Source of the DNA: a virus | IMG/VR virus record: IMGVR_UViG_3300008448_000750 | Span: 1-22,045 of that record | DNA: 22,045 nt | Reading direction: 5' to 3' (one strand) | In this document: piece by piece, positions 1 through 14,664 of the stretch | Layout of the letters: each line of letters opens with the position of its first letter | How positions within the stretch are numbered: the first letter of the stretch is position 1 | Notes under the pieces: model-generated | Database searches by the model: none | Seen by the model: only the letters and a program-made list of their open reading frames with translations | Told to the model about the DNA's origin: nothing | Translations under genes and position numbers: made by a program

Positions 1-936
1 AAACCAACATGTTAGTTCAGGCAACGACATTCCATTTTCAAATTTGTAGTCTTTCCATTCATCCCAACGGGCTAAATTTAATGAAGATAAACAACAAATA
101 AATGAATGTAATTCATCTGTATATAATGAAATTTCACTACAGATATTGGTCATTGATACTTGTAGATTATTTTTCTTGTATGCTTCAGGATTAGCATTGT
201 TGACATTATCTTCATACATGATGTATGGTTCGCCTGTTTCTAAACGTGTTTTTAGAATCTCACCCCACAATTTAATTGCTTTAGGGTCTTTATTTTCTAA
301 TTTAGTCATAAATTCATCATCAACTACAACACATTGATGTAAATTTAAACACTGTCTATTAACATCACCTTTTGGTCTACGAATTTGTAAAAATTCTTCA
401 ATATCTGGGTGGTTAATGTTTAGATTAACGGATGCTGCTCCTCTGCGAACACTACCTTGGTTTGTAGCTAAAATAGTTGAATCATAAATTTTACACCATG
501 GAACTACACCTTCAGATATTCCATTGTCTTTAATAGCTTTACCTCTACCTCTAATACGAGATACACCAATACCAACACCTCCACCTTGAGAAGATAGACG
601 CATTAGTTCTGAGTTTGCATCCGCAATACCTTCAATGCTATCTCCAACATCAATACCAAAACATGAAATGGGCATTCCACGTTCAGTACCTAAATTTGAT
701 AGTACAGGTGAGGCTAAACATAGCCAATTTTTAACCATTGCTTCATAGAAAAATGGTTGTAAATCCTTACGACGTAAACGACGTGCTGCAAATTTACTTA
801 CTCGTTTAAATGCATCGAATACATCTTCATCAGGTAATAAATAGCCTTTTGAAACCATGCTCACTGCAATGTCGTCCATAAATTCGGGATAATTTTTTCC
901 CTTAATCCAATTTGTTGTATCTATTTGTATGCTCAT
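1..936 (-). CDS. nrdA: Class Ia ribonucleotide reductase large subunit, C-terminal part cut off by the window edge
   Basis: The reading frame opens with ATG at 936-934 and stays open for 312 codons to base 1, so the rest of the gene lies outside the window. It reduces ribonucleoside diphosphates to deoxy forms together with NrdB. Visible landmarks are the first redox cysteine in PISCFGID (C92, matching E. coli C225), the glycine-rich SQGGGVGIG stretch near 116-124, and the active-site segment MTNICSEIS, where N264, C266 and E268 match E. coli N437, C439 (thiyl radical) and E441. Only 91 residues precede the redox cysteine, against about 224 in E. coli, so the N-terminal ATP-cone that senses dATP is absent. 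The gene follows an 86-codon gene after a 9-base gap, in an operon with nrdB. Confidence 0.96.
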   Translation of the reverse strand, partial: MSIQIDTTNWIKGKNYPEFMDDIAVSMVSKGYLLPDEDVFDAFKRVSKFAARRLRRKDLQPFFYEAMVKNWLCLASPVLSNLGTERGMPISCFGIDVGDSIEGIADANSELMRLSSQGGGVGIGVSRIRGRGKAIKDNGISEGVVPWCKIYDSTILATNQGSVRRGAASVNLNINHPDIEEFLQIRRPKGDVNRQCLNLHQCVVVDDEFMTKLENKDPKAIKLWGEILKTRLETGEPYIMYEDNVNNANPEAYKKNNLQVSMTNICSEISLYTDELHSFICCLSSLNLARWDEWKDYKFENGMSLPELTCWF

Positions 937-7167: not shown

Positions 7168-8448
7168 TTAATTTAGAGACATTGAACCATAAGTTGATCC
7201 TTTTGTCGTTTTTGTTTTTAGGTTAAATTTTGTAAATACTTCATTAATTTCTTCTAATATGTCTTCGTCTTTTTTATAATCTAAAAGTATTGAATCATAA
7301 GTATATAACACTACTTTTGTGGATTTGTTCCTCAAGAGGCGAATTATGTTCCATAATATAAGAACATTTGTTGAGGTCTCCAAGTTTTGTAGTGTATAGT
7401 TGAAAAGTTTTTGAGGATTTAAATCCTTTATGTTTTTAGTAAATCTATGACCTGAAATGGGACATTCAACAAATCCATCGGTTTGAAATGTATTCCACAA
7501 TTTATCAGTATATTTTTGTATTAATTGGAAAAATTCAATATGTTGATACTCCTTATATACTCCACCATACAATTGTTTAAACATTAATGTTTTTGCTTCA
7601 TCAATTTCCACATTTGCCTCTCTAGCAAAATATTGATATGGTGTTTCATCTTCAAAATGAAAATTAACTAATTGAGCAGCTAATGTAGGGTGGTATGCTG
7701 TAATATCTATTTCTAGAAAATAGTCATTTTCGGGTATAAATGCATCTCTACATCCATCCTCTTTATTTAATGCGGCAAAATTAATTCCATTAAAACGATT
7801 TGAAGGACGACCAGTAACATTATATAAATTATATTGAGTATAAATAGTATTTTCGTAAAGCGAAAAATCTTCATTATTTAATTCAAAATGTTTATTGAAT
7901 ACATCCGGATTAACTTTGATTCCACTTTGCTCAATAGCATAAAATACACTTGTTAATTTATTGTGAAATTTAACATTAGGAGGTGCTACACAATAGTCTT
8001 TAACTTTATCAAAAATATATTCACATTTTTCATAGTGTTTAGTTAAAGGCACAATGGCATTAATATTCAATTTTTCTCCATGTCGTTGATAGAAAAAATC
8101 ATGTGCTGAGGTAGTAGGGTCCTGATATTCAGGAGATATAAAAGATATATCTATTACGTTATATACTGGAAAATGATATATAAAAGATTTTCTATCTCGT
8201 ACATATAGTTCGTCAAAAGAGGACAATAAATTGTCTATAGAAACTTTATCTATAGAAAGCGCTTCACTATGGTCCAAACACACGATATATCCTTTATCGT
8301 TGTTTAATGGTTTGATATATAATAAGGATACGTGATTAAGTGATGGATGTAAATTGTCATTGTAGTAGATGGGTTCAACAAATACCTTGTCGTATCCCAT
8401 GTAAAATAAATCACTTAATTGTTCATTGGTTTCTACTATGTAAAACAT
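7168..8448 (-). CDS. polA: Compact family A DNA polymerase with no recognisable 3'-5' exonuclease motif
   Basis: The C-terminal ~220 of 426 residues show family A polymerase motifs in order. They are TGRPSNRFNGINFAAL (212-227, like TGRLSS...NLQN of Pol I), motif A EIDITAYHPTLAAQL (catalytic D248), and motif B in the K-xxx-F-xxx-YG form (K286, F290, Y294, G295). A Q-rich helix (YTLQNLETSTNV, 351-362) and motif C YTYDSILLDY (D385) follow. Motif C reads YDS where Pol I has HDE. The N-terminal ~160 residues resemble a degenerate exonuclease fold without the DxE metal motif (KVFVEPIYY at 21-29). At 426 residues it is shorter than Klenow (about 605). T4 uses a family B enzyme in this role, so this is a different choice of polymerase. 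It is the first gene after the terminator region. Confidence 0.88.
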   Translation of the reverse strand: MFYIVETNEQLSDLFYMGYDKVFVEPIYYNDNLHPSLNHVSLLYIKPLNNDKGYIVCLDHSEALSIDKVSIDNLLSSFDELYVRDRKSFIYHFPVYNVIDISFISPEYQDPTTSAHDFFYQRHGEKLNINAIVPLTKHYEKCEYIFDKVKDYCVAPPNVKFHNKLTSVFYAIEQSGIKVNPDVFNKHFELNNEDFSLYENTIYTQYNLYNVTGRPSNRFNGINFAALNKEDGCRDAFIPENDYFLEIDITAYHPTLAAQLVNFHFEDETPYQYFAREANVEIDEAKTLMFKQLYGGVYKEYQHIEFFQLIQKYTDKLWNTFQTDGFVECPISGHRFTKNIKDLNPQKLFNYTLQNLETSTNVLILWNIIRLLRNKSTKVVLYTYDSILLDYKKDEDILEEINEVFTKFNLKTKTTKGSTYGSMSLN

Positions 8449-8500
8449 AACCTTTATTTTTGATTAAATATATAAAAAGAATTTTTGTAATCCCAATTTT
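8449..8500 (-). promoter_or_regulatory. Possible promoter region for the replication operon
   Basis: These AT-rich bases separate the terminator that ends the late operon from the polymerase start codon. On the coding strand they read TTGGGATTACA, then an A/T-rich spacer, then TATATATTTAATC about 14-26 bases before the ATG. A -10-like TATATTTA box downstream of a TTG-containing element fits loosely with promoters of Bacteroidota. Location is the main support: transcription must restart here if the upstream terminator works. The exact boxes cannot be fixed by eye. Confidence 0.35.
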
Positions 8501-8542
8501 AAAAAGAGAAAACACCCAAGGTAGCGAACGATGAGTGTTTTC
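8501..8542 (-). terminator. Rho-independent terminator ending the late operon
   Basis: On the coding strand GAAAACACTC (8542-8533) pairs with GGGTGTTTTC (8517-8508) to give a 10-bp stem with one G-U pair. A 15-base loop separates the arms, and TCTTTTT (8507-8501) follows directly. It lies 40 bases beyond the stop codon of the last structural gene and before the polymerase gene, so it separates late from replication transcripts. The 11 loop bases TTCGCTACCTT (8528-8518) are unusual and are discussed in the findings. Confidence 0.85.
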
Positions 8543-8544
8543 AG

Positions 8545-8581
8545 ATAGCCGAAGCTATAGACGGTCCTAAGTCCGTATGTC
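8545..8581 (-). other. Two extra hairpins between the last late gene and its terminator
   Basis: On the coding strand ACGG-N8-CCGT (8576-8561) and ATAGC-TTCG-GCTAT (8558-8545) form two small hairpins. The second is closed by a C(UUCG)G tetraloop, which is very stable in RNA. With the terminator they make three consecutive stem-loops in about 75 bases, starting directly after the stop codon at 8583. They may protect the 3' end of the late message, or the segment may be released as a small RNA. Neither role is shown by the sequence alone. Confidence 0.6.
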
Positions 8582-8582
8582 T

Positions 8583-9215
8583 TTACTTGAAATATTTAAG
8601 AAAATCGTTTTTTAGATATTCTGAAAACATGGGCAATTGTAGATTTTGAGAGGTTAGTTCAACTATGTTTTGGTTTATTTTTGCTACTTGACTTTCAATT
8701 CCTGCTAATTTCCATGGGATATCAAAAGGAAAATATAGTTGAAACAAAATACTTGAATCTTTTTTTACTAGTTTATCATACGTATTTTTATTTATCTCAA
8801 TGTATAGAATTTCGTTTGTTTTTTTACAAAAATATCTTCGAAATTCTCCAATTTGATAATCTTTAGAAGTTGGTAAAGATGGTGAATGTGAAGGAACTTC
8901 AGCATTAATAGTATTATCTTCTTTTTTTAAATTAAAATAACTTGTAGGATCAAATTCTTGAAGAGAAATAACATTTTCTCCTAAAATATTTATATATCCA
9001 GGTACATCTGTAAAATATTGAGGAGATATAAGAAGACTAAAATCTTTTATTAATTCAATATTAGGTTTATCTTGGGGATTTTTGCCTGAAAAGAATTTTC
9101 CATCTGAGGTTTTATAATAAAATCCAACATATGGTTCTTTGGTAGAAGAATTAATAAGTTCATTACCTATGGTATATAAATCAGAAGTAATTTGGGATTT
9201 AGGATAATAAGCCAT
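8583..9215 (-). CDS. Unknown late protein, paralogue A of the duplicated cassette
   Basis: This 210-residue protein is clearly homologous to the one at 10305-10970. Both begin YYP-SQIT-LYT, share VGFYYK/VGYYWK and GKNPQDKP near residues 30-60, and have an almost identical C-terminal ~100 residues (QIGEFRRYFCKKTNEILY, FPFDIPWKL, SEYLKNDFLKYFK). The middle, about residues 60-110, is diverged. No signal peptide, membrane segment or known catalytic motif is visible. It follows peptidase-like gene A by 13 bases and is the last gene of the late operon, so it may be a partner, chaperone or adaptor of the peptidase-like proteins. Related proteins seem familiar from environmental phages, but I know of no assigned function. 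Confidence 0.85.
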   Translation of the reverse strand: MAYYPKSQITSDLYTIGNELINSSTKEPYVGFYYKTSDGKFFSGKNPQDKPNIELIKDFSLLISPQYFTDVPGYINILGENVISLQEFDPTSYFNLKKEDNTINAEVPSHSPSLPTSKDYQIGEFRRYFCKKTNEILYIEINKNTYDKLVKKDSSILFQLYFPFDIPWKLAGIESQVAKINQNIVELTSQNLQLPMFSEYLKNDFLKYFK

Positions 9216-9228
9216 AATTATTTATTTT

Positions 9229-10296
9229 TTAAGTAAACCAATCTATAGGTTTAATAATACTTGTGGGTTTATCAGAGTTTGCAGGTTTATATTTAACTAT
9301 ACTACTTTCATTTCCTCCAATAGTACTATATGTAAATACACCTTTATTAATATTAACTCCAACACATATATTTATATGTCCAAATTGTCCACTCCCCTCT
9401 CTTCTATAAGTTATCATATCCCCAGGTTCCATTAGTAATAAATCACTTAGAGAAACAAATGTTTTAGTAGGCTTTATAACTATAAGTTTACTATAAGGAG
9501 TACCTAAAGTAGTACTACAATATTTTAATATATCTGGAATAGTAGATGTTACATTATCATATGTTCTTCTAACTCCTGCAGTTATTATAGTTTTCCATTG
9601 TTTTGAATCTCCAGGGAATCGTAAACGACCACCTGCTCCATCTTTACTATTGCCCCCACCAAATTCATTATAGACTAGTTGAAAAATATCTGTATATCTT
9701 GGATCGGTTTTTATTAGCTTAGAATAAGCTTTCCAATATATCAATTTAGTAGTCCAATTACACCATTGAGAATCTTTACCCGGAAACCATCCCATAGTTT
9801 TTATTTCGGCTTGAAATGTAGCATCATTGAATTTAAAAGATCCGTCTTGGATTGGATCTTCAGAAATGCATTTATTGTAAAGATCTTGAGCTTCTAAAAT
9901 TATATTTTGACGTAATGGTGTATATGCCGATACATCAAGATTTAATGCTGTTCCTCCACATCTTCTTTTTGCTGGTGGAGTGGGAGAAACTGGTGGTGGG
10001 GGTTTAGGAACATTTATAAATTTAATAGGGAAAGTCTCTAAATTTAAATTTGGATCGGGAGGATCAAAGCTAAAATTTTCAAGTCTTCCCTCTTCTTCTA
10101 TATCCTCATAATTAAGGCTTGATATTTCTATAGGGATAGTAATAGTAGTTTGTCCAGCACTAAAAACATATGGTCCTAATCTTATGATAAAGTTACTACC
10201 ATCCTTTTTTTTAATTACAACATCAAAAGAAATTTTAGTATCTACTTCAAATCCTCCATCGCTCATTGTAAGAGTAAATTCTGCTGAAATTGCCAT
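9229..10296 (-). CDS. Cys-His peptidase-like protein A with shared N-terminal domain (probable cell wall hydrolase)
   Basis: The 355-residue protein has three parts. Residues 1-94 are a beta-rich domain, almost the same as in the protein at 10976-11932. A short proline-rich linker follows (about 97-108, PKPPPPVSPTPP). The C-terminal domain has a candidate nucleophile C179 in QWCNWTTKL and a candidate histidine H307 after a typical PGDMITYRR turn (GQFGHINICVG). This order, Cys at the start of a helix and then PGD-x-beta-His, is that of CHAP or NlpC/P60-type peptidoglycan hydrolases. It lacks a signal peptide, and its place after the baseplate genes suggests a tail-associated or lysis hydrolase. 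The N-terminal domain probably docks it onto the particle (inference). Exact family and substrate are not resolved. Confidence 0.72.
   Translation of the reverse strand: MAISAEFTLTMSDGGFEVDTKISFDVVIKKKDGSNFIIRLGPYVFSAGQTTITIPIEISSLNYEDIEEEGRLENFSFDPPDPNLNLETFPIKFINVPKPPPPVSPTPPAKRRCGGTALNLDVSAYTPLRQNIILEAQDLYNKCISEDPIQDGSFKFNDATFQAEIKTMGWFPGKDSQWCNWTTKLIYWKAYSKLIKTDPRYTDIFQLVYNEFGGGNSKDGAGGRLRFPGDSKQWKTIITAGVRRTYDNVTSTIPDILKYCSTTLGTPYSKLIVIKPTKTFVSLSDLLLMEPGDMITYRREGSGQFGHINICVGVNINKGVFTYSTIGGNESSIVKYKPANSDKPTSIIKPIDWFT
10015..10296 (-). repeat. Direct repeat, copy A (shared N-terminal domain DNA)
   Basis: The first ~282 coding bases of the peptidase-like gene A are nearly the same as those of gene B at 11651-11932. 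Long identical blocks such as CTTCCCTCTTCTTCTATA (10085-10102 on the plus strand) occur in both. Similarity stops at the proline-rich linker. Identity at the DNA level suggests a recent duplication or gene conversion. Confidence 0.9.
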
Positions 10297-10304
10297 TGGT
10301 TATT

Positions 10305-10970
10305 TTATTTGAAATATTTAAGAAAATTGTTTTCTAAATACTCAGAAAACAAAGTAAGATTTAATTTAGACATATTTAACTCTACAGTATTTTGATTAGT
10401 TTTAGAAACTTGATCTTCAACTCCAGTTAGTTTCCATGGAATATCAAAAGGAAAATACAATTGCCAAAGTACAGTTGAATCTTTTTTTACTAATTTATCA
10501 TATACCTCTTTACTTATTTCAAGATATAAAATTTCGTTTGTTTTTTTACAAAAATATCTTCGAAATTCTCCTATTTGATAATCTTGGGGAGTTGGGAGAG
10601 TTGGAGAATAGTATGGGTAAACTATTTTTTTAGATGTAGTATCTTTTTTAAGGTTAGAATATGATGTATTATTTTTTATTTCAATTTCATCTTGAGAATC
10701 TATAACAAATGAAGGTATGTTAATTGACAAAAATCCTTCAGTTAAAGAATCTTTTTCTGTAAGTAAACTTTTTCTGAACTCAGATAGTAGATATAATTTT
10801 TTTGTAGGTTTATCTTGAGGATTTTTACCCGTATAATATTCTCCTTTTGAATTCTTCCAGTAATATCCAACATAAAAAGAAGAAGGGGAATTGGTAAAAT
10901 TAAGGTCTAAAACAAACTCTGATCCTGGAGTGTATAGATTTGGGGTGATTTGAGATAATGGATAATACAT
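10305..10970 (-). CDS. Unknown late protein, paralogue B of the duplicated cassette
   Basis: The 221-residue protein is the second copy of the 8583-9215 protein and shares its N-terminal YYP-SQIT-LYT start, the GKNPQDKP motif and the C-terminal ~100 residues. The central part (about 65-120) is not alignable by eye. The DNA in the C-terminal part is also very similar: the TTTTTTTACAAAAATATC region occurs in both copies, at 8820-8837 and 10540-10557. It lies 5 bases after peptidase-like gene B and 8 bases before gene A. The repeated order peptidase-then-unknown suggests each copy belongs to its upstream peptidase-like gene. No function can be assigned. Confidence 0.85.
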   Translation of the reverse strand: MYYPLSQITPNLYTPGSEFVLDLNFTNSPSSFYVGYYWKNSKGEYYTGKNPQDKPTKKLYLLSEFRKSLLTEKDSLTEGFLSINIPSFVIDSQDEIEIKNNTSYSNLKKDTTSKKIVYPYYSPTLPTPQDYQIGEFRRYFCKKTNEILYLEISKEVYDKLVKKDSTVLWQLYFPFDIPWKLTGVEDQVSKTNQNTVELNMSKLNLTLFSEYLENNFLKYFK

Positions 10971-10975
10971 TATAA

Positions 10976-11932
10976 TTATTTTAAATATGCTGGTTTAATT
11001 TTATATGCATAAAATTCATATGGATCAAAATAATATGGATATACCATTGTTGATGAATAATTAGTTAAATTATCAGTAGTCCACCCATTTACTATATCAC
11101 CATAATAATCGTTTTTTCCTTTTGCAACACATGTTGACCATGTTTTATAAGGTTCAATTTTACGGTTATAGCTTTTAAATATATCTCCTGTATACATTTG
11201 GGCATGCTGGCGAGTTCCCTCTGCACAATAATTAGGATCCCAATATACTGCTATGTCTCCATAATTCCAAGATATTTTATTTATTTCTTTTTGTAAAACA
11301 CCCCCCTTTCCAGCTGTAAATCTGCCTATGTAATATTCATCATAAATTCCAGTTTTTTTAATATTTGTTCTTAATAAAACTGAACATCCATCCCCACCTC
11401 CTAGCCATGTGAATGGTATTGCAGATGGACTATTATTATCTATATGGGTTTTAATATATCTACAAAACTGATATGTCCAACCAGCACATAAATATGAATA
11501 TCTCATTGAATTAGCATACTTTGTATAAGTGTATATTATTTGATCTTCAACTGCTTTTCTTAATAATGGAGTAGAAGATGGAGAAGCAGGAGGAGGGGCA
11601 GGTGGGGGAGAGGGTGGTGGTGGTGGTGGTGGAGGAGGAGGTGGGGGCGCAATGAATTTAATAGGGAAAGTCTCTAAATTTAAATTTGGGTCGGGGGGAT
11701 TAAAATAAAAATTTTCAAGTCTTCCCTCTTCTTCTATATCCTCATAATTAAGGCTTGCTATTTCTATAGGGATAGTGAGGAAAGTCTGCCCTGCTTTAAA
11801 AATATATGGGCCTAATCTTGTAACAAAATTGCTACCATCTTTTTTTTTAATTACAACATCAAAAGAAATTTGAGTATCTATTTCAAATCCTTCTTCACTT
11901 ACTGTAAGAGTAAATTCTGCTATAATAGGCAT
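10976..11932 (-). CDS. Cys-His peptidase-like protein B with shared N-terminal domain and poly-proline linker
   Basis: Residues 1-94 repeat the N-terminal domain of the 9229-10296 protein with few changes. A long linker follows, with twelve prolines in a row (96-107) and more Pro/Ser up to about 122. The C-terminal domain (about 123-318) differs from that of protein A. It has a candidate nucleophile C149 in YLCAGWTYQF and a candidate H243 in RQHAQMYTGD, after the turn NYGDIAVYW. This again fits a CHAP or NlpC/P60-like fold. Several other cysteines (C157, C183, C236) are present, so the catalytic one is not certain. No signal peptide is seen. A tail-borne or lytic peptidoglycan hydrolase is the best guess. 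Confidence 0.7.
   Translation of the reverse strand: MPIIAEFTLTVSEEGFEIDTQISFDVVIKKKDGSNFVTRLGPYIFKAGQTFLTIPIEIASLNYEDIEEEGRLENFYFNPPDPNLNLETFPIKFIAPPPPPPPPPPPPSPPPAPPPASPSSTPLLRKAVEDQIIYTYTKYANSMRYSYLCAGWTYQFCRYIKTHIDNNSPSAIPFTWLGGGDGCSVLLRTNIKKTGIYDEYYIGRFTAGKGGVLQKEINKISWNYGDIAVYWDPNYCAEGTRQHAQMYTGDIFKSYNRKIEPYKTWSTCVAKGKNDYYGDIVNGWTTDNLTNYSSTMVYPYYFDPYEFYAYKIKPAYLK
11588..11650. repeat. G-rich low-complexity tract encoding a poly-proline linker
   Basis: The plus strand carries runs of GGT and GGA with several GGG to GGGGG blocks in an otherwise AT-rich genome. The coding strand reads CCN codons and gives twelve consecutive prolines plus a Pro/Ser/Ala stretch. The G-rich strand could form a G-quadruplex, and the repeat is prone to length changes by slippage. 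Confidence 0.85.
11651..11932 (-). repeat. Direct repeat, copy B (shared N-terminal domain DNA)
   Basis: This is the partner of the repeat at 10015-10296, about 1.64 kb away in the same orientation. It ends exactly where the poly-proline tract begins, so the linker is the boundary between the shared domain and the unrelated-looking C-terminal domain. Confidence 0.9.
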
Positions 11933-11943
11933 AAAAAACTATA

Positions 11944-14334
11944 TTATTTCTTTTTTACTGTACCAGTTGCTGTAATTGTTTTTCGTGCTGGAGTAGGTGT
12001 AACTGATGGAGGTGCAGCTGGAGAAGTTGAAGGACTAGGGGATGTTGAACTGGTTCCTTTAGAGATAGTAATAGAATCTAGTTTAGTAGTCCATTTATTA
12101 TTTTCTATTTTATGGCGTATATTCTTTATTAAAAATTCAGAATTTCTAGGATAAGTGGTAGGAAGAGCATCAGTATCTATATAAAATTTATTATATATTT
12201 TCATACCAGAAAGTCCATCTACTGTTAAAGACATATTAAAAGGAATAAATCCAGTTCCTGGTTGGATTGGATCTGGTGTACCACTAATTTGATTATCTAT
12301 TTCTACTATTTGTCTTCGATATCTTAAAAGATTTGTAAATACATTCTTTATTGATTCTTTTTCTGGGGGGCTGAAAATTTTATTTTTTAGATTTTTTACA
12401 AAATCATACCATATAGTATAGGATTCATTAAATCTACTTAATAAATCTTGTTTGTTTTTATATAGAGCAGATAAAGTTGCTGATGTTTGAGCTGCGGATT
12501 CGGAATCTGAGATTTTTTCTTTAAAACGATCTGTTAATCCAGCATTAAATCTAGAAAAAGCTGTTGATGTTTCTCCTACTACTGCAGCATTAGCGGTTGC
12601 TCCTACTGTTATCATAGTAGAAGTTGCAGGAGATAATTCTGTGGTAAGAGAAAAATCTTTTATAAATGAAGCTACTGTTCCAGTTTTTCCTCCACCGGTT
12701 GCTCCCGTTCTGTATCCAACAAATTGAAATTGAGCTTGGGCAGTAGATAAACCTCTATTTGCTATAATTTTATCTCCATCTGGAAGAGGATTTGCATCTC
12801 TAATTATAATTTCATTAGTAGTTTCATCTATATTAACTTCTAAAGCATTAACCCCCCCAAGTGCTCCATTAATACCTACACATATCTCGGTTAGGAAATC
12901 TATTAAAACTACTTTATTTTCCTCTACTGATTTTAATTCTTCTAGTTTGGAAAGAAGAAACTTTATGTTAATATATATATCCATTATTTTACCATATGAA
13001 TATGTAGCTCCACTTGAAACATAAGCTGGTTGCTCAAAACCTTCTCCCTGGTGTTCATTTGGTAGACCATAATCTAATACTGAGGTTAAACAAATTGTTG
13101 GATCTATACTAGTTTGATAAATTCGTTGATTAGTACCGCCAGATGTTTGAAAATCAAAAATTATAGTCATTAAATTTAATTGTGGATCAATATTAAAATT
13201 TAATATAGGAACATCATTTGATATAGATCCATTTGCATAGCGTTGAGAATATACAATTTTATCTTGGATAAATTTGAGTAGGGTTGCAAATCTAACATAA
13301 TATTGTCTTTGATCCATACCTTGATAAGTTACAGCTACTCCATCTGCTTCAAAGGCTGCGGGTGGATTAAAATTCTCAAAATCTGGACTTGATGGAGGGA
13401 TATAAAAAATATCAGTAGTAGCCATTCGAAATGCAAGAGCTAATAGAAATCTTCCTAAAGTTGTTGAAAGGCCATTTCTTAAAATTTCTACATATGCATT
13501 AGCTTCAGGAGTACCTATTATAGTAAATGCTTTTATAAGAGAAGTAGCATTAGTTTTAATAGAACTAAATGAACTATCACTTACTAATGAATTTACTTTA
13601 AAAGATTCAACTACATCCCCAATACTAACTAAATCTACAGTAATATCGTAACTACCATCTGGAAGAAAAGACCAATGGAAATTACAAACTTTAGCAAACA
13701 TTGCATCATAATTTCCAAATGATGCTAAACGTTGATTTTGAATTTTTTTAAGAAAATCAGTATATGATACTCCTCCATTTATAAAATCATTTTCTAAACT
13801 TATTCCACTAGTAGCTGCATCTTCAAGTCCACCATTATTATTGAGATAGTATGTGTGACCCCATTCAAGCAATACACTAAAACCTAATCTAAGATATAGG
13901 GTATCTATTACTTCAAATTGGAGTTTATTAAATGCTCTAATTTTTACACTAGCTCTACGAATTGAACCTCTATTTTCGTGTTGGATTTCAGCGGACGTAA
14001 TACCCATCATAGGACGTTCTCCTAAACTCGTTCCCAACATACCATAAGCACCATTAAAACCAATACCACTTAATCCACCCTTTGTTCCACTAAATAAAAC
14101 ATATGCTTGTGCTGTTGAATTTCCGGTTGGAAAAGCACTTAATCCTTGATTTTGAATTATTGATGGTGTATCTATATTAACCCCAGAAACTAATTTTACC
14201 CAAGAAGTATTTCCATTTAAATATTTAATTCTATTATCACTTCGTTCTGAACTCCATCCTGATCCGTAAGCAGCCTGTCTGCGTTCAATTTGTGTAACTA
14301 TTGCTTGGGGAAATCCTTCACCTATTATATTCAT
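11944..14334 (-). CDS. Large baseplate-like structural protein (unassigned)
   Basis: This 796-residue protein follows the gp53-like gene by 3 bases and precedes peptidase-like gene B. The segment ITSAEIQHENRGSIRRASVK with FNKLQFEVIDTLYLRLGFSVLLEWGH (about residues 112-162) reminds me of large tail or baseplate proteins of uncultured T4-like phages. No enzymatic motif is visible. The middle holds mixed alpha/beta sequence. The last ~35 residues are a Ser/Pro/Thr-rich tail that ends with a basic TVKKK, similar in composition to the linkers of the two downstream peptidase-like proteins. Gene order (tape measure, cap-like, gp53-like, this) suggests a baseplate hub or wedge part, but I cannot name the T4 equivalent. 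Confidence 0.75.
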   Translation of the reverse strand: MNIIGEGFPQAIVTQIERRQAAYGSGWSSERSDNRIKYLNGNTSWVKLVSGVNIDTPSIIQNQGLSAFPTGNSTAQAYVLFSGTKGGLSGIGFNGAYGMLGTSLGERPMMGITSAEIQHENRGSIRRASVKIRAFNKLQFEVIDTLYLRLGFSVLLEWGHTYYLNNNGGLEDAATSGISLENDFINGGVSYTDFLKKIQNQRLASFGNYDAMFAKVCNFHWSFLPDGSYDITVDLVSIGDVVESFKVNSLVSDSSFSSIKTNATSLIKAFTIIGTPEANAYVEILRNGLSTTLGRFLLALAFRMATTDIFYIPPSSPDFENFNPPAAFEADGVAVTYQGMDQRQYYVRFATLLKFIQDKIVYSQRYANGSISNDVPILNFNIDPQLNLMTIIFDFQTSGGTNQRIYQTSIDPTICLTSVLDYGLPNEHQGEGFEQPAYVSSGATYSYGKIMDIYINIKFLLSKLEELKSVEENKVVLIDFLTEICVGINGALGGVNALEVNIDETTNEIIIRDANPLPDGDKIIANRGLSTAQAQFQFVGYRTGATGGGKTGTVASFIKDFSLTTELSPATSTMITVGATANAAVVGETSTAFSRFNAGLTDRFKEKISDSESAAQTSATLSALYKNKQDLLSRFNESYTIWYDFVKNLKNKIFSPPEKESIKNVFTNLLRYRRQIVEIDNQISGTPDPIQPGTGFIPFNMSLTVDGLSGMKIYNKFYIDTDALPTTYPRNSEFLIKNIRHKIENNKWTTKLDSITISKGTSSTSPSPSTSPAAPPSVTPTPARKTITATGTVKKK

Positions 14335-14337
14335 AAC

Positions 14338-14664
14338 TTATAAATTATTTAAACTTCTAAAACTATTTAATATATCAATATATCTAGCAGGAATACGAAT
14401 TTGATTCCCTTCAGGTATAACTAATGAATCTTGGGGAAAATCTGCAGGTAATGACGTACCTGCTACTGCTGTATTAGCAATTGAGATAATCCACCATAGT
14501 GATTGATCATCATAGTATTGTTGAGCTAAAACATCAAATCTGTCTCCTTGTGCCGTATATACATAAATATCTTCATCTGAAAGAGGTATTTCAGGATATT
14601 TAGTAGTTTGATAACATTGTTTTTTATCAATTTTTATAGTAGGAATAGACTGATAACGATTCAT
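14338..14664 (-). CDS. 53: gp53-like baseplate wedge protein with LysM-type domain
   Basis: This 108-residue protein shows the pattern of T4 gp53-like wedge proteins and LysM domains. It has IYVYTAQGDRFDVLAQQYYDD (residues 33-53, given here with its key Y, G-D and A-xx-YY residues), then SLWWIISIAN (55-64), then VIPEGNQIRIPARY (82-95). The D-xx-A-xx-YYxDxxLWWIIxxAN signature and the final PxGxxxRIP are the main evidence. In T4, gp53 closes the baseplate wedges around the hub. It sits between two large structural genes, 14 bases after the 754-codon gene and 3 bases before the 796-codon gene. It is shorter than T4 gp53 (about 196 residues). Confidence 0.72.
   Translation of the reverse strand: MNRYQSIPTIKIDKKQCYQTTKYPEIPLSDEDIYVYTAQGDRFDVLAQQYYDDQSLWWIISIANTAVAGTSLPADFPQDSLVIPEGNQIRIPARYIDILNSFRSLNNL

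Follow-up and report, generated by a model that had tools for sequence, protein, structure and literature searches.

The 22,045 nt stretch of viral DNA analysed here (IMGVR_UViG_3300008448_000750 from IMG/VR; hereafter the window, a fragment of ~22 kb) probably includes the locus for the tail-tip peptidoglycan hydrolases of a phage with a contractile tail, in which the wall enzymes would have been split from the baseplate hub and then doubled; we give this reading, including the account of fission, docking, duplication and exchange set out below, a probability of about 0.68. A sequence-only reading had described two tandem gene pairs, each consisting of a peptidase-like gene and a partner gene of unknown function, and all four open reading frames are present in the ORF list where that reading placed them, all on the minus strand. 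Both pairs adjoin the baseplate-hub gene on its downstream side, with pepA and pepB in the tail module (baseplate/hub operon) directly behind the hub, and that upstream gene (11944–14334) has to be included when the cassette is interpreted. The features of the locus are as follows:

14338..14664, minus strand: LysM-type baseplate protein, the next gene upstream of the hub (phrog_7145 baseplate wedge, 6e-8)
11944..14334, minus strand: baseplate hub protein, 796 aa; core only, lacking the C-terminal hydrolase of the relatives' hubs
11947..12054, minus strand: Ser/Thr/Pro-rich 36-aa hub end, site of the linker to the hydrolase in relatives
10976..11932, minus strand: hydrolase B (pepB), 318 aa; N-domain, Pro linker and Cys-His-Asn C-domain
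11651..11932, minus strand: N-domain of hydrolase B, residues 1–94; predicted beta-sandwich, presumed docking domain
10979..11572, minus strand: C-domain of hydrolase B with C149, H243 and N291; family of hub tails L022, L044, L111 and L125
11486–11488, 11204–11206 and 11060–11062, minus strand: pepB codons C149, H243 and N291, respectively
10305..10970, minus strand: partner B, 221 aa; N part ~1–65, disordered middle 73–109, C-domain 117–221 (both ends conserved)
9229..10296, minus strand: hydrolase A (pepA), 355 aa; N-domain, Pro linker and Cys-His-Asn C-domain
10015..10296, minus strand: N-domain of hydrolase A, residues 1–94
9232..9945, minus strand: C-domain of hydrolase A with C179, H307 and N329; CHAP/NlpC-like
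9760–9762, 9376–9378 and 9310–9312, minus strand: pepA codons C179, H307 and N329, respectively
8583..9215, minus strand: partner A, 210 aa; the family tree places it as sister to partner B (97/95)
7168..8448, minus strand: DNA polymerase gene, right-hand module boundary; normally comes after a single partner

The window was compared with ~80 IMG/VR relatives, which belong to a large family of aquatic phages, and with two cultured phages, Flavobacterium phage immuto and Microcystis phage Mel-JY01. The window hub matches an HMM built from the relatives' hub cores (E 1.5e-217) and is homologous to the hub of immuto. In the usual layout of the relatives, the hub core is fused in one gene to a C-terminal wall-hydrolase module, mostly 150–370 aa long, and one partner gene follows; the order tube, TMP, LysM, hub-hydrolase, partner, polymerase is found at ~100 loci and in immuto (the polymerase call is from the immuto gene in the equivalent position, annotated as DNA polymerase family A, and from the downstream neighbour in the relatives). 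The hub-tail module is swapped among unrelated families (M23, VanY, Amidase_2, Phage_lysozyme, tail lysozyme, SleB and others), and seven Pfam families score above their curated cut-offs: M23 (E 2.9e-21), VanY (2.7e-14), Phage_lysozyme2 (9.2e-28), Phage_lysozyme (7.1e-31), Hydrolase_2 (2.3e-7) and DUF5675 (6e-12) in hub tails, and Amidase_2 (6.3e-11) in a free-standing enzyme at locus L010. One natural swap is seen between loci L015 and L016, which are 96–99% identical around the hub tail and carry wholly different hydrolases, the break lying at the linker. The hubs of the relatives bear a single wall hydrolase at the C-terminus, in whose place unrelated families are found; the hubs of Mel-JY01 and L068 have none. 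The window locus differs from the relatives in three ways, namely that its hub is enzyme-free, its enzymes stand alone, attached to an orphan N-domain, and its cassette is doubled, and no doubled cassette was found among the other loci collected. A terminator scan found nothing, a scan of a genome collection for hosts or prophages gave no matches, and pepA and partner B had no tblastn match among named phages; matches came only when distant relatives were used.

The two hydrolase genes are separate reading frames with their own starts and are not covalently part of the hub, which ends at the linker. As had been proposed from the letters of the sequence, their products share an N-terminal domain and carry different C-terminal domains: residues 1–104 are 79% identical (E 3e-49; 81% over residues 1–99), and beyond them there is no meaningful similarity. 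The N-domain copies are 87% identical at the DNA level and are under purifying selection (dS 0.39, dN 0.10), and the structure model of pepB has a pLDDT of ~67–85 over most of the domain. No relatives of it were found in IMG/VR or in any collected locus, and the expected further copies did not appear, so its role as a docking domain is only a guess from position; matches to DUF3113/phrog_299 (E 0.02–0.1) were taken as chance. The sequence-only reading had cast this ~94-residue domain as the constant carrier of exchangeable wall hydrolases. The exchange itself is borne out by the seven Pfam families and the L015/L016 pair, but as a rule the hydrolases are carried by the baseplate hub protein itself, and the N-domain is an orphan confined to pepA and pepB.

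Both C-domains match hub tails of relatives, that of pepA being in the family of the tails of L054, L055, L061, L062, L091, L094 and L095. The Cys and His residues singled out earlier proved to be well chosen: C179 and H307 of pepA, along with N329, are invariant in 8 homologues, C149 and H243 of pepB, along with N291, are invariant in 6, and the CHAP/NlpC-P60 order of Cys, Gly-Asp strand, His and Asn is conserved in both C-domain families. These conserved residues are consistent with a Cys-His peptidase fold. No CHAP/NlpC-P60 profile scored above its curated cut-off for pepA, pepB or their relatives; pepA has weak sub-threshold matches (Amidase_6, E 0.013; CHAP, E 0.068) and pepB has none, the nearest PDB chain in the CHAP/NlpC-P60 check was 6ist Lysin (E 0.23), and the pepB structure model (pLDDT 59) has no significant PDB match. 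Homology between the two C-domains was not detected by hhalign.

Partners A and B align end to end with 55% identity (E 9e-77). They had been described as alike at both ends and not in the middle; the ends do agree, and the middle is fast-evolving rather than clearly unrelated, being the only stretch with relaxed constraint (dN 0.81, dS 1.27). The C-terminal 100 residues are under purifying selection (dS 1.07, dN 0.17), and the copies of this block are 79% identical at the DNA level; since the DNA identity of the N-domain and partner blocks is only 87% and 79%, the two cassettes are not an assembly duplicate. The expectation that the partner always follows held in all 78 informative loci, 76 of which have it directly after the hub/hydrolase; in L010 a free-standing amidase lies between them, and in L073 the partner stands behind a truncated hydrolase tail. 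In two phages (L024/L025) the partner is fused with long collagen-like repeats, as would be expected if it lay on the surface of the virion. It has no fold relative in the PDB, and its significant matches in a BFVD search are uncharacterised phage proteins only.

Does the partner co-vary with the enzyme? It is present beside the hydrolase-less hubs of Mel-JY01 and L068, so its occurrence is not tied to that of an enzyme, and it is 98.8% identical in DNA across the complete L015/L016 swap; because it is kept in both situations, the partner goes with the hub and not with a particular enzyme. Similarity at its N-terminus tracks some hydrolase families and similarity at its C-terminus does not, and the N-parts of partners A and B resemble different relatives, those that share a hydrolase family with the adjacent enzyme. 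A loop insertion is present in the partner at 6 of 6 pepB-type loci and 6 of 67 others, and the motif [LI][YF]x[LIV], a relaxed form adopted post hoc, at 6 of 6 and 2 of 69, respectively. The strict motif stated beforehand, P..[KR]L[YF].[LIV], was found in neither of two new close pepB-type loci; both fit the relaxed motif and have the insertion, which had been seen earlier but lay outside the pre-stated test. The large VanY and tail lysozyme classes show no association with the partner in a permutation test that ignores shared ancestry. The co-variation claimed earlier is thus retained for the N-terminal part and some hydrolase classes, where these sequence comparisons are suggestive, and is lost where the hydrolase is swapped or absent. 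We take the partner to be a component of the hub or tail tip, with a 5' part able to move along with the enzyme.

In the account that we prefer, hub and hydrolase would have been split by gene fission, and the free hydrolases would attach non-covalently to the hub or tip through the N-domain. When the sheath contracts they would breach the wall locally, a step that having two chemistries may broaden or secure. The enzymes are no longer hub-fused, and free-standing VanY-like genes (assigned by eye) lie right behind the partner in L006 (138 aa) and L010 (166 aa); both observations would suit pepA and pepB having turned into endolysins, which attack the wall from within when infection ends and have simply not moved out of the tail operon. 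We consider this improbable: the enzymes lie between hub and partner, their common N-terminal domain and Pro linker resemble a virion-binding module, their C-domains are homologous to hub tails, and the hub would otherwise have no wall enzyme. Nowhere else in the window was a lysis gene recognised, which counts for little given that it is only a 22 kb fragment, and the ORF list shows no recognisable holin/lysis module. The partner, likewise, would be a virion component of the hub or tail tip and not an enzyme-specific helper. Its strict adjacency, its separate copy for each window hydrolase and the partial tracking of hydrolase family by its N-part (loop insertion and motif) would fit a dedicated chaperone or an inhibitor (immunity-like protein) of the hydrolase, but such a role is unlikely for a protein that occurs at hydrolase-less hubs, is nearly unchanged after the L015/L016 swap, carries fused collagen-like repeats in L024/L025 and shows no association with the VanY and tail lysozyme classes.

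Under the tail-tip reading the second cassette would have come from duplication and later mosaic exchange. The exchange would have used two borders, the N-domain, which is nearly the same in both copies, and the 3' half of the partner, which is conserved, so that the hydrolase domain and the 5' part of the partner would have moved together. That the partners are sisters and that the N-domain is limited to pepA and pepB would also be explained by plain tandem duplication of the fissioned cassette followed by ordinary divergence, one C-domain being replaced later and no special exchange borders being involved. This simpler history is possible but not favoured, as synonymous divergence is unequal (0.39 in the N-domain versus 1.07 at the partner C-end), which means that the blocks differ in age, and the partner N-parts resemble different relatives matched to the hydrolase family of the adjacent enzyme. 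Gene conversion could alternatively be the source of the age difference. A bolder and rather doubtful extension is that the unit of exchange is a two-gene cassette with its ends inside genes, comprising the hydrolase domain and the N-terminal portion of the gene behind it, the latter forming a fit matched to that hydrolase at the tail tip, and that the window phage, having two complete units, builds particles with mixed or alternative tip enzymes.

Wall hydrolases used at entry are carried on the tail hub in the T4 gp5/gp27 cell-puncturing device, where the lysozyme lies inside gp5 between the OB and beta-helix domains; the enzyme is C-terminal in the relatives and free-standing in the window. 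The earlier statement that no described system has such a layout was too strong, since hub-fused C-terminal peptidases are known: according to the accessible part of the report on Anabaena myophage A-1(L), its hub gp15 has a C-terminal peptidase domain (residues 736–899) that attacks host cells, and gp16, a LysM baseplate protein, binds to that hub (PMC10966104). A-1(L) resembles the window family in both the hub with a C-terminal peptidase (as in the relatives) and the LysM protein, but its enzyme domains are all within one hub protein, with no hydrolases that are free-standing and duplicated, and that part of the report describes no partner gene of the window's type. Two different wall hydrolases per virion, as may be the case in the window phage, are present in PRD1 and Staphylococcus phage phi11, the only known cases as of 2017 (PMC5380687); the portion of that source available does not report paralogous cassettes built on one N-domain next to a hub. 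The window cassette is a variant within the known virion-associated hydrolases, set apart by its free-standing, doubled form.

Within a single phage lineage, the relatives form an extensive natural collection of hub-hydrolase exchanges: the common scaffold bears at least seven enzyme families, and one swap can be seen between two nearly identical phages. This makes it testable how an entry enzyme can be exchanged while the tail stays working, and whether the neighbouring structural gene must match the enzyme. Conserved unannotated genes also gain a family, among them immuto gp032 and Mel-JY01 WWT39332. In immuto (vB_FspM_immuto) the homologous hub gp033 ends in VanY (6.6e-10), the partner homologue gp032 lies directly downstream and the flanking genes are as in the window; it differs in having one fused enzyme and one partner, the latter with an extra N-terminal domain of ~100 aa. 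Mel-JY01 WWT39331–WWT39332 are a hub and partner homologous to those of the window, with polymerase-like and p152-like genes downstream, and differ in that the hub is without any hydrolase.

The 22 kb virus record comes from a contractile-tailed phage and includes genes for its tail and its replication. On its minus strand the tail tube, gp26-like and other baseplate genes, tape measure, LysM protein and hub precede the doubled cassette, and beyond the cassette lie the polymerase, ssDNA-binding protein, RecA, 5′ exonuclease, DnaB and NrdB genes. Several of these names were taken from genes at the corresponding place in immuto, a cultured Flavobacterium phage from the Baltic Sea whose RecA shares 61% identity with the window RecA. 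The four cassette ORFs of the sequence-only reading are all present:

Minus strand: tape measure (phrog_58, 1e-19)
Minus strand: LysM baseplate protein (phrog_7145, 6e-8)
11944-14334, minus strand: hub, 796 aa, between the LysM baseplate protein and the cassette
10976-11932, minus strand: hydrolase-like protein B (pepB)
10305-10970, minus strand: partner B
9229-10296, minus strand: hydrolase-like protein A (pepA)
8583-9215, minus strand: partner A
8449-8582: non-coding gap separating partner A from the polymerase

Read on the minus strand, the gap holds a short UUCG-capped hairpin and an inverted repeat, GAAAACAC/GTGTTTTC; a terminator scan flagged neither in 8449-8582.

An IMG/VR scan with partner B as query gave 100 relatives, of which 80 loci were kept, and gene order is conserved in nearly all of these; 23 further loci from a second scan with the window hub left the picture unchanged. 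The partner does follow consistently in related phages: 76 of the 78 loci whose upstream side is visible place it immediately after the hub gene (median gap 2 nt), the exceptions being L010, with a free-standing amidase between hub and partner, and L073, with a truncated hydrolase tail ahead of the partner. The relatives' hubs mostly carry 150–370 additional residues C-terminal to the conserved hub core, and these hub tails are differing enzymes; several further clusters of them have no Pfam name.

Pfam profile matches at the relatives' loci
Peptidase_M23: L015 hub tail (2.9e-21)
VanY: hub tails of L005, L040 and immuto (L083)
Hydrolase_2: L001 hub tail
DUF5675: L002 hub tail
Phage_lysozyme: hub tails of L027 and L064
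Phage_lysozyme2 (tail lysozyme): L042 hub tail
Amidase_2: L010, free-standing

The window hub terminates after a 36-residue Ser/Thr/Pro stretch at the site of the relatives' linker. In L006 (7199-9998), L010 (2055-4481) and L125 the hub gene is two overlapping or adjacent ORFs, for which frameshift, assembly error and real fission are candidate causes.

That wall hydrolases are exchangeable, as had been proposed, is seen in loci L015 and L016, which are 96–99% identical on each side of the hub tail; identity is lost at the linker (9431) and returns at the hub end (9988), and the stretch between is wholly replaced, an M23 domain in L015 and a VanY-like domain (VanY E only 0.049) in L016. The partner gene downstream is 98.8% identical, so the enzyme can also be exchanged without its partner. 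L008 and L027 show another swap, whose break continues into the central part of the partner.

The window enzymes have their counterparts among these tails. The pepA C-domain groups with the hub tails of L054, L055, L061, L062, L091, L094 and L095, and Cys179, His307 and Asn329 are invariant in the pepA-type alignment; that of pepB groups with L022, L044, L111 and L125 and, more remotely, L097 and L118, with Cys149, His243 and Asn291 invariant in six aligned sequences. Both have the order Cys ... Gly-Asp ... His ... Asn and read like CHAP/NlpC hydrolases; since profile scores lie under the cut-off and the pepB model (pLDDT 59) is too uncertain for a fold, we infer this assignment from residues and context.

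The two enzymes indeed share an N-terminal domain and differ beyond it: residues 1–104 are 79% identical, with no meaningful similarity thereafter. This domain is predicted to be a beta-sandwich, and no relative of it was found in IMG/VR or any collected locus. The partners are alike at both ends, as claimed, but their middles are not clearly unrelated, the two aligning over their entire length at 55% identity; a second partner copy occurs in the window only, among the collected loci. Between the copies, the DNA of the N-domain is 87% identical and that of the partner 3′ half 79%. In both blocks dN is far below dS, which places both copies under purifying selection, and the unequal dS (0.39 in the N-domain versus 1.07 in the partner 3′ block) makes the blocks appear to differ in age. 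Most likely, hub and hydrolase were separated by gene fission, the freed enzyme would be bound non-covalently at the tail tip, and the cassette was doubled, with the N-domain and partner 3′ half as conserved borders around an exchangeable stretch. The data show the architecture, the homology, the swaps and the conservation directly; beyond these we infer docking, a virion location, activity and an advantage of two enzymes.

Co-variation of partner and enzyme, also proposed, holds only in part: the N-terminal and middle parts of the partner suggest it, and its C part, its tree and the L015/L016 swap do not show it. The first 52 residues of partner A are closest to L062, L061 and L054 (ranks 1–3 of 53) and those of partner B to L022 (rank 1; L044 is seventh), loci whose hydrolase families are those of the adjacent window enzymes; L055, at rank 42, is an exception. 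At their C-ends the partners of these five loci rank only 35–40 of 53, and in the tree partners A and B are sisters (97/95) outside the clades with matching hydrolases. When loci of one hydrolase class but with distant hubs are compared in pairs, with ancestry ignored, their partners are more alike than expected in the N part (p 0.0025) and middle (p <0.0005) and not in the C part (p 0.20). The N part has a longer loop in 6/6 pepB-type loci versus 6/67 others; the strict motif P..[KR]L[YF].[LIV], fixed before the last scans, was absent from both new close pepB-type loci. Linked recombination of the hydrolase with the partner 5′ part would explain these patterns without functional matching, and the partner N part may also be functionally matched to the hydrolase.

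Among 55 aligned partners the N part and C-domain are conserved and the middle variable; the predicted model has two confident ends and a disordered stretch at 73–109, and a PDB fold search with it found no relative. A role as hub or tail-tip structural protein suits the partner better than one as a dedicated chaperone or inhibitor, because partners persist beside hubs without a hydrolase (phage Mel-JY01, whose hub stops at the core and whose partner matches the partner HMM at E 3e-20; L068), extend in L024 (9995-12733) and L025 (9998-13717) into hundreds of collagen-like G-T/V/I-Q repeats that run to the end of the contig and suggest a tail-tip fibre, and in L074–L080 carry a second copy of the N-terminal motif at the C-terminus (about residues 209–283). 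Two previously unannotated proteins, each from a cultured phage, belong to the partner family, immuto gp032 (L083, 19384-20355) and Mel-JY01 WWT39332 (L096, 11980-12639).

The window locus is a variation on known hub-borne and virion lysins and no separate class. A hub-borne C-terminal peptidase is reported as established for A-1(L) (PMC10966104), virion lysins have been described as combining a virion-binding domain with lytic domains, and in 2017 the presence of two distinct virion lysins in a single phage was termed rare (PMC5380687). Right behind the partner, small free-standing enzymes that look VanY-like by eye lie in L006 (10609-11025) and L010 (5922-6422), and are possible endolysins.
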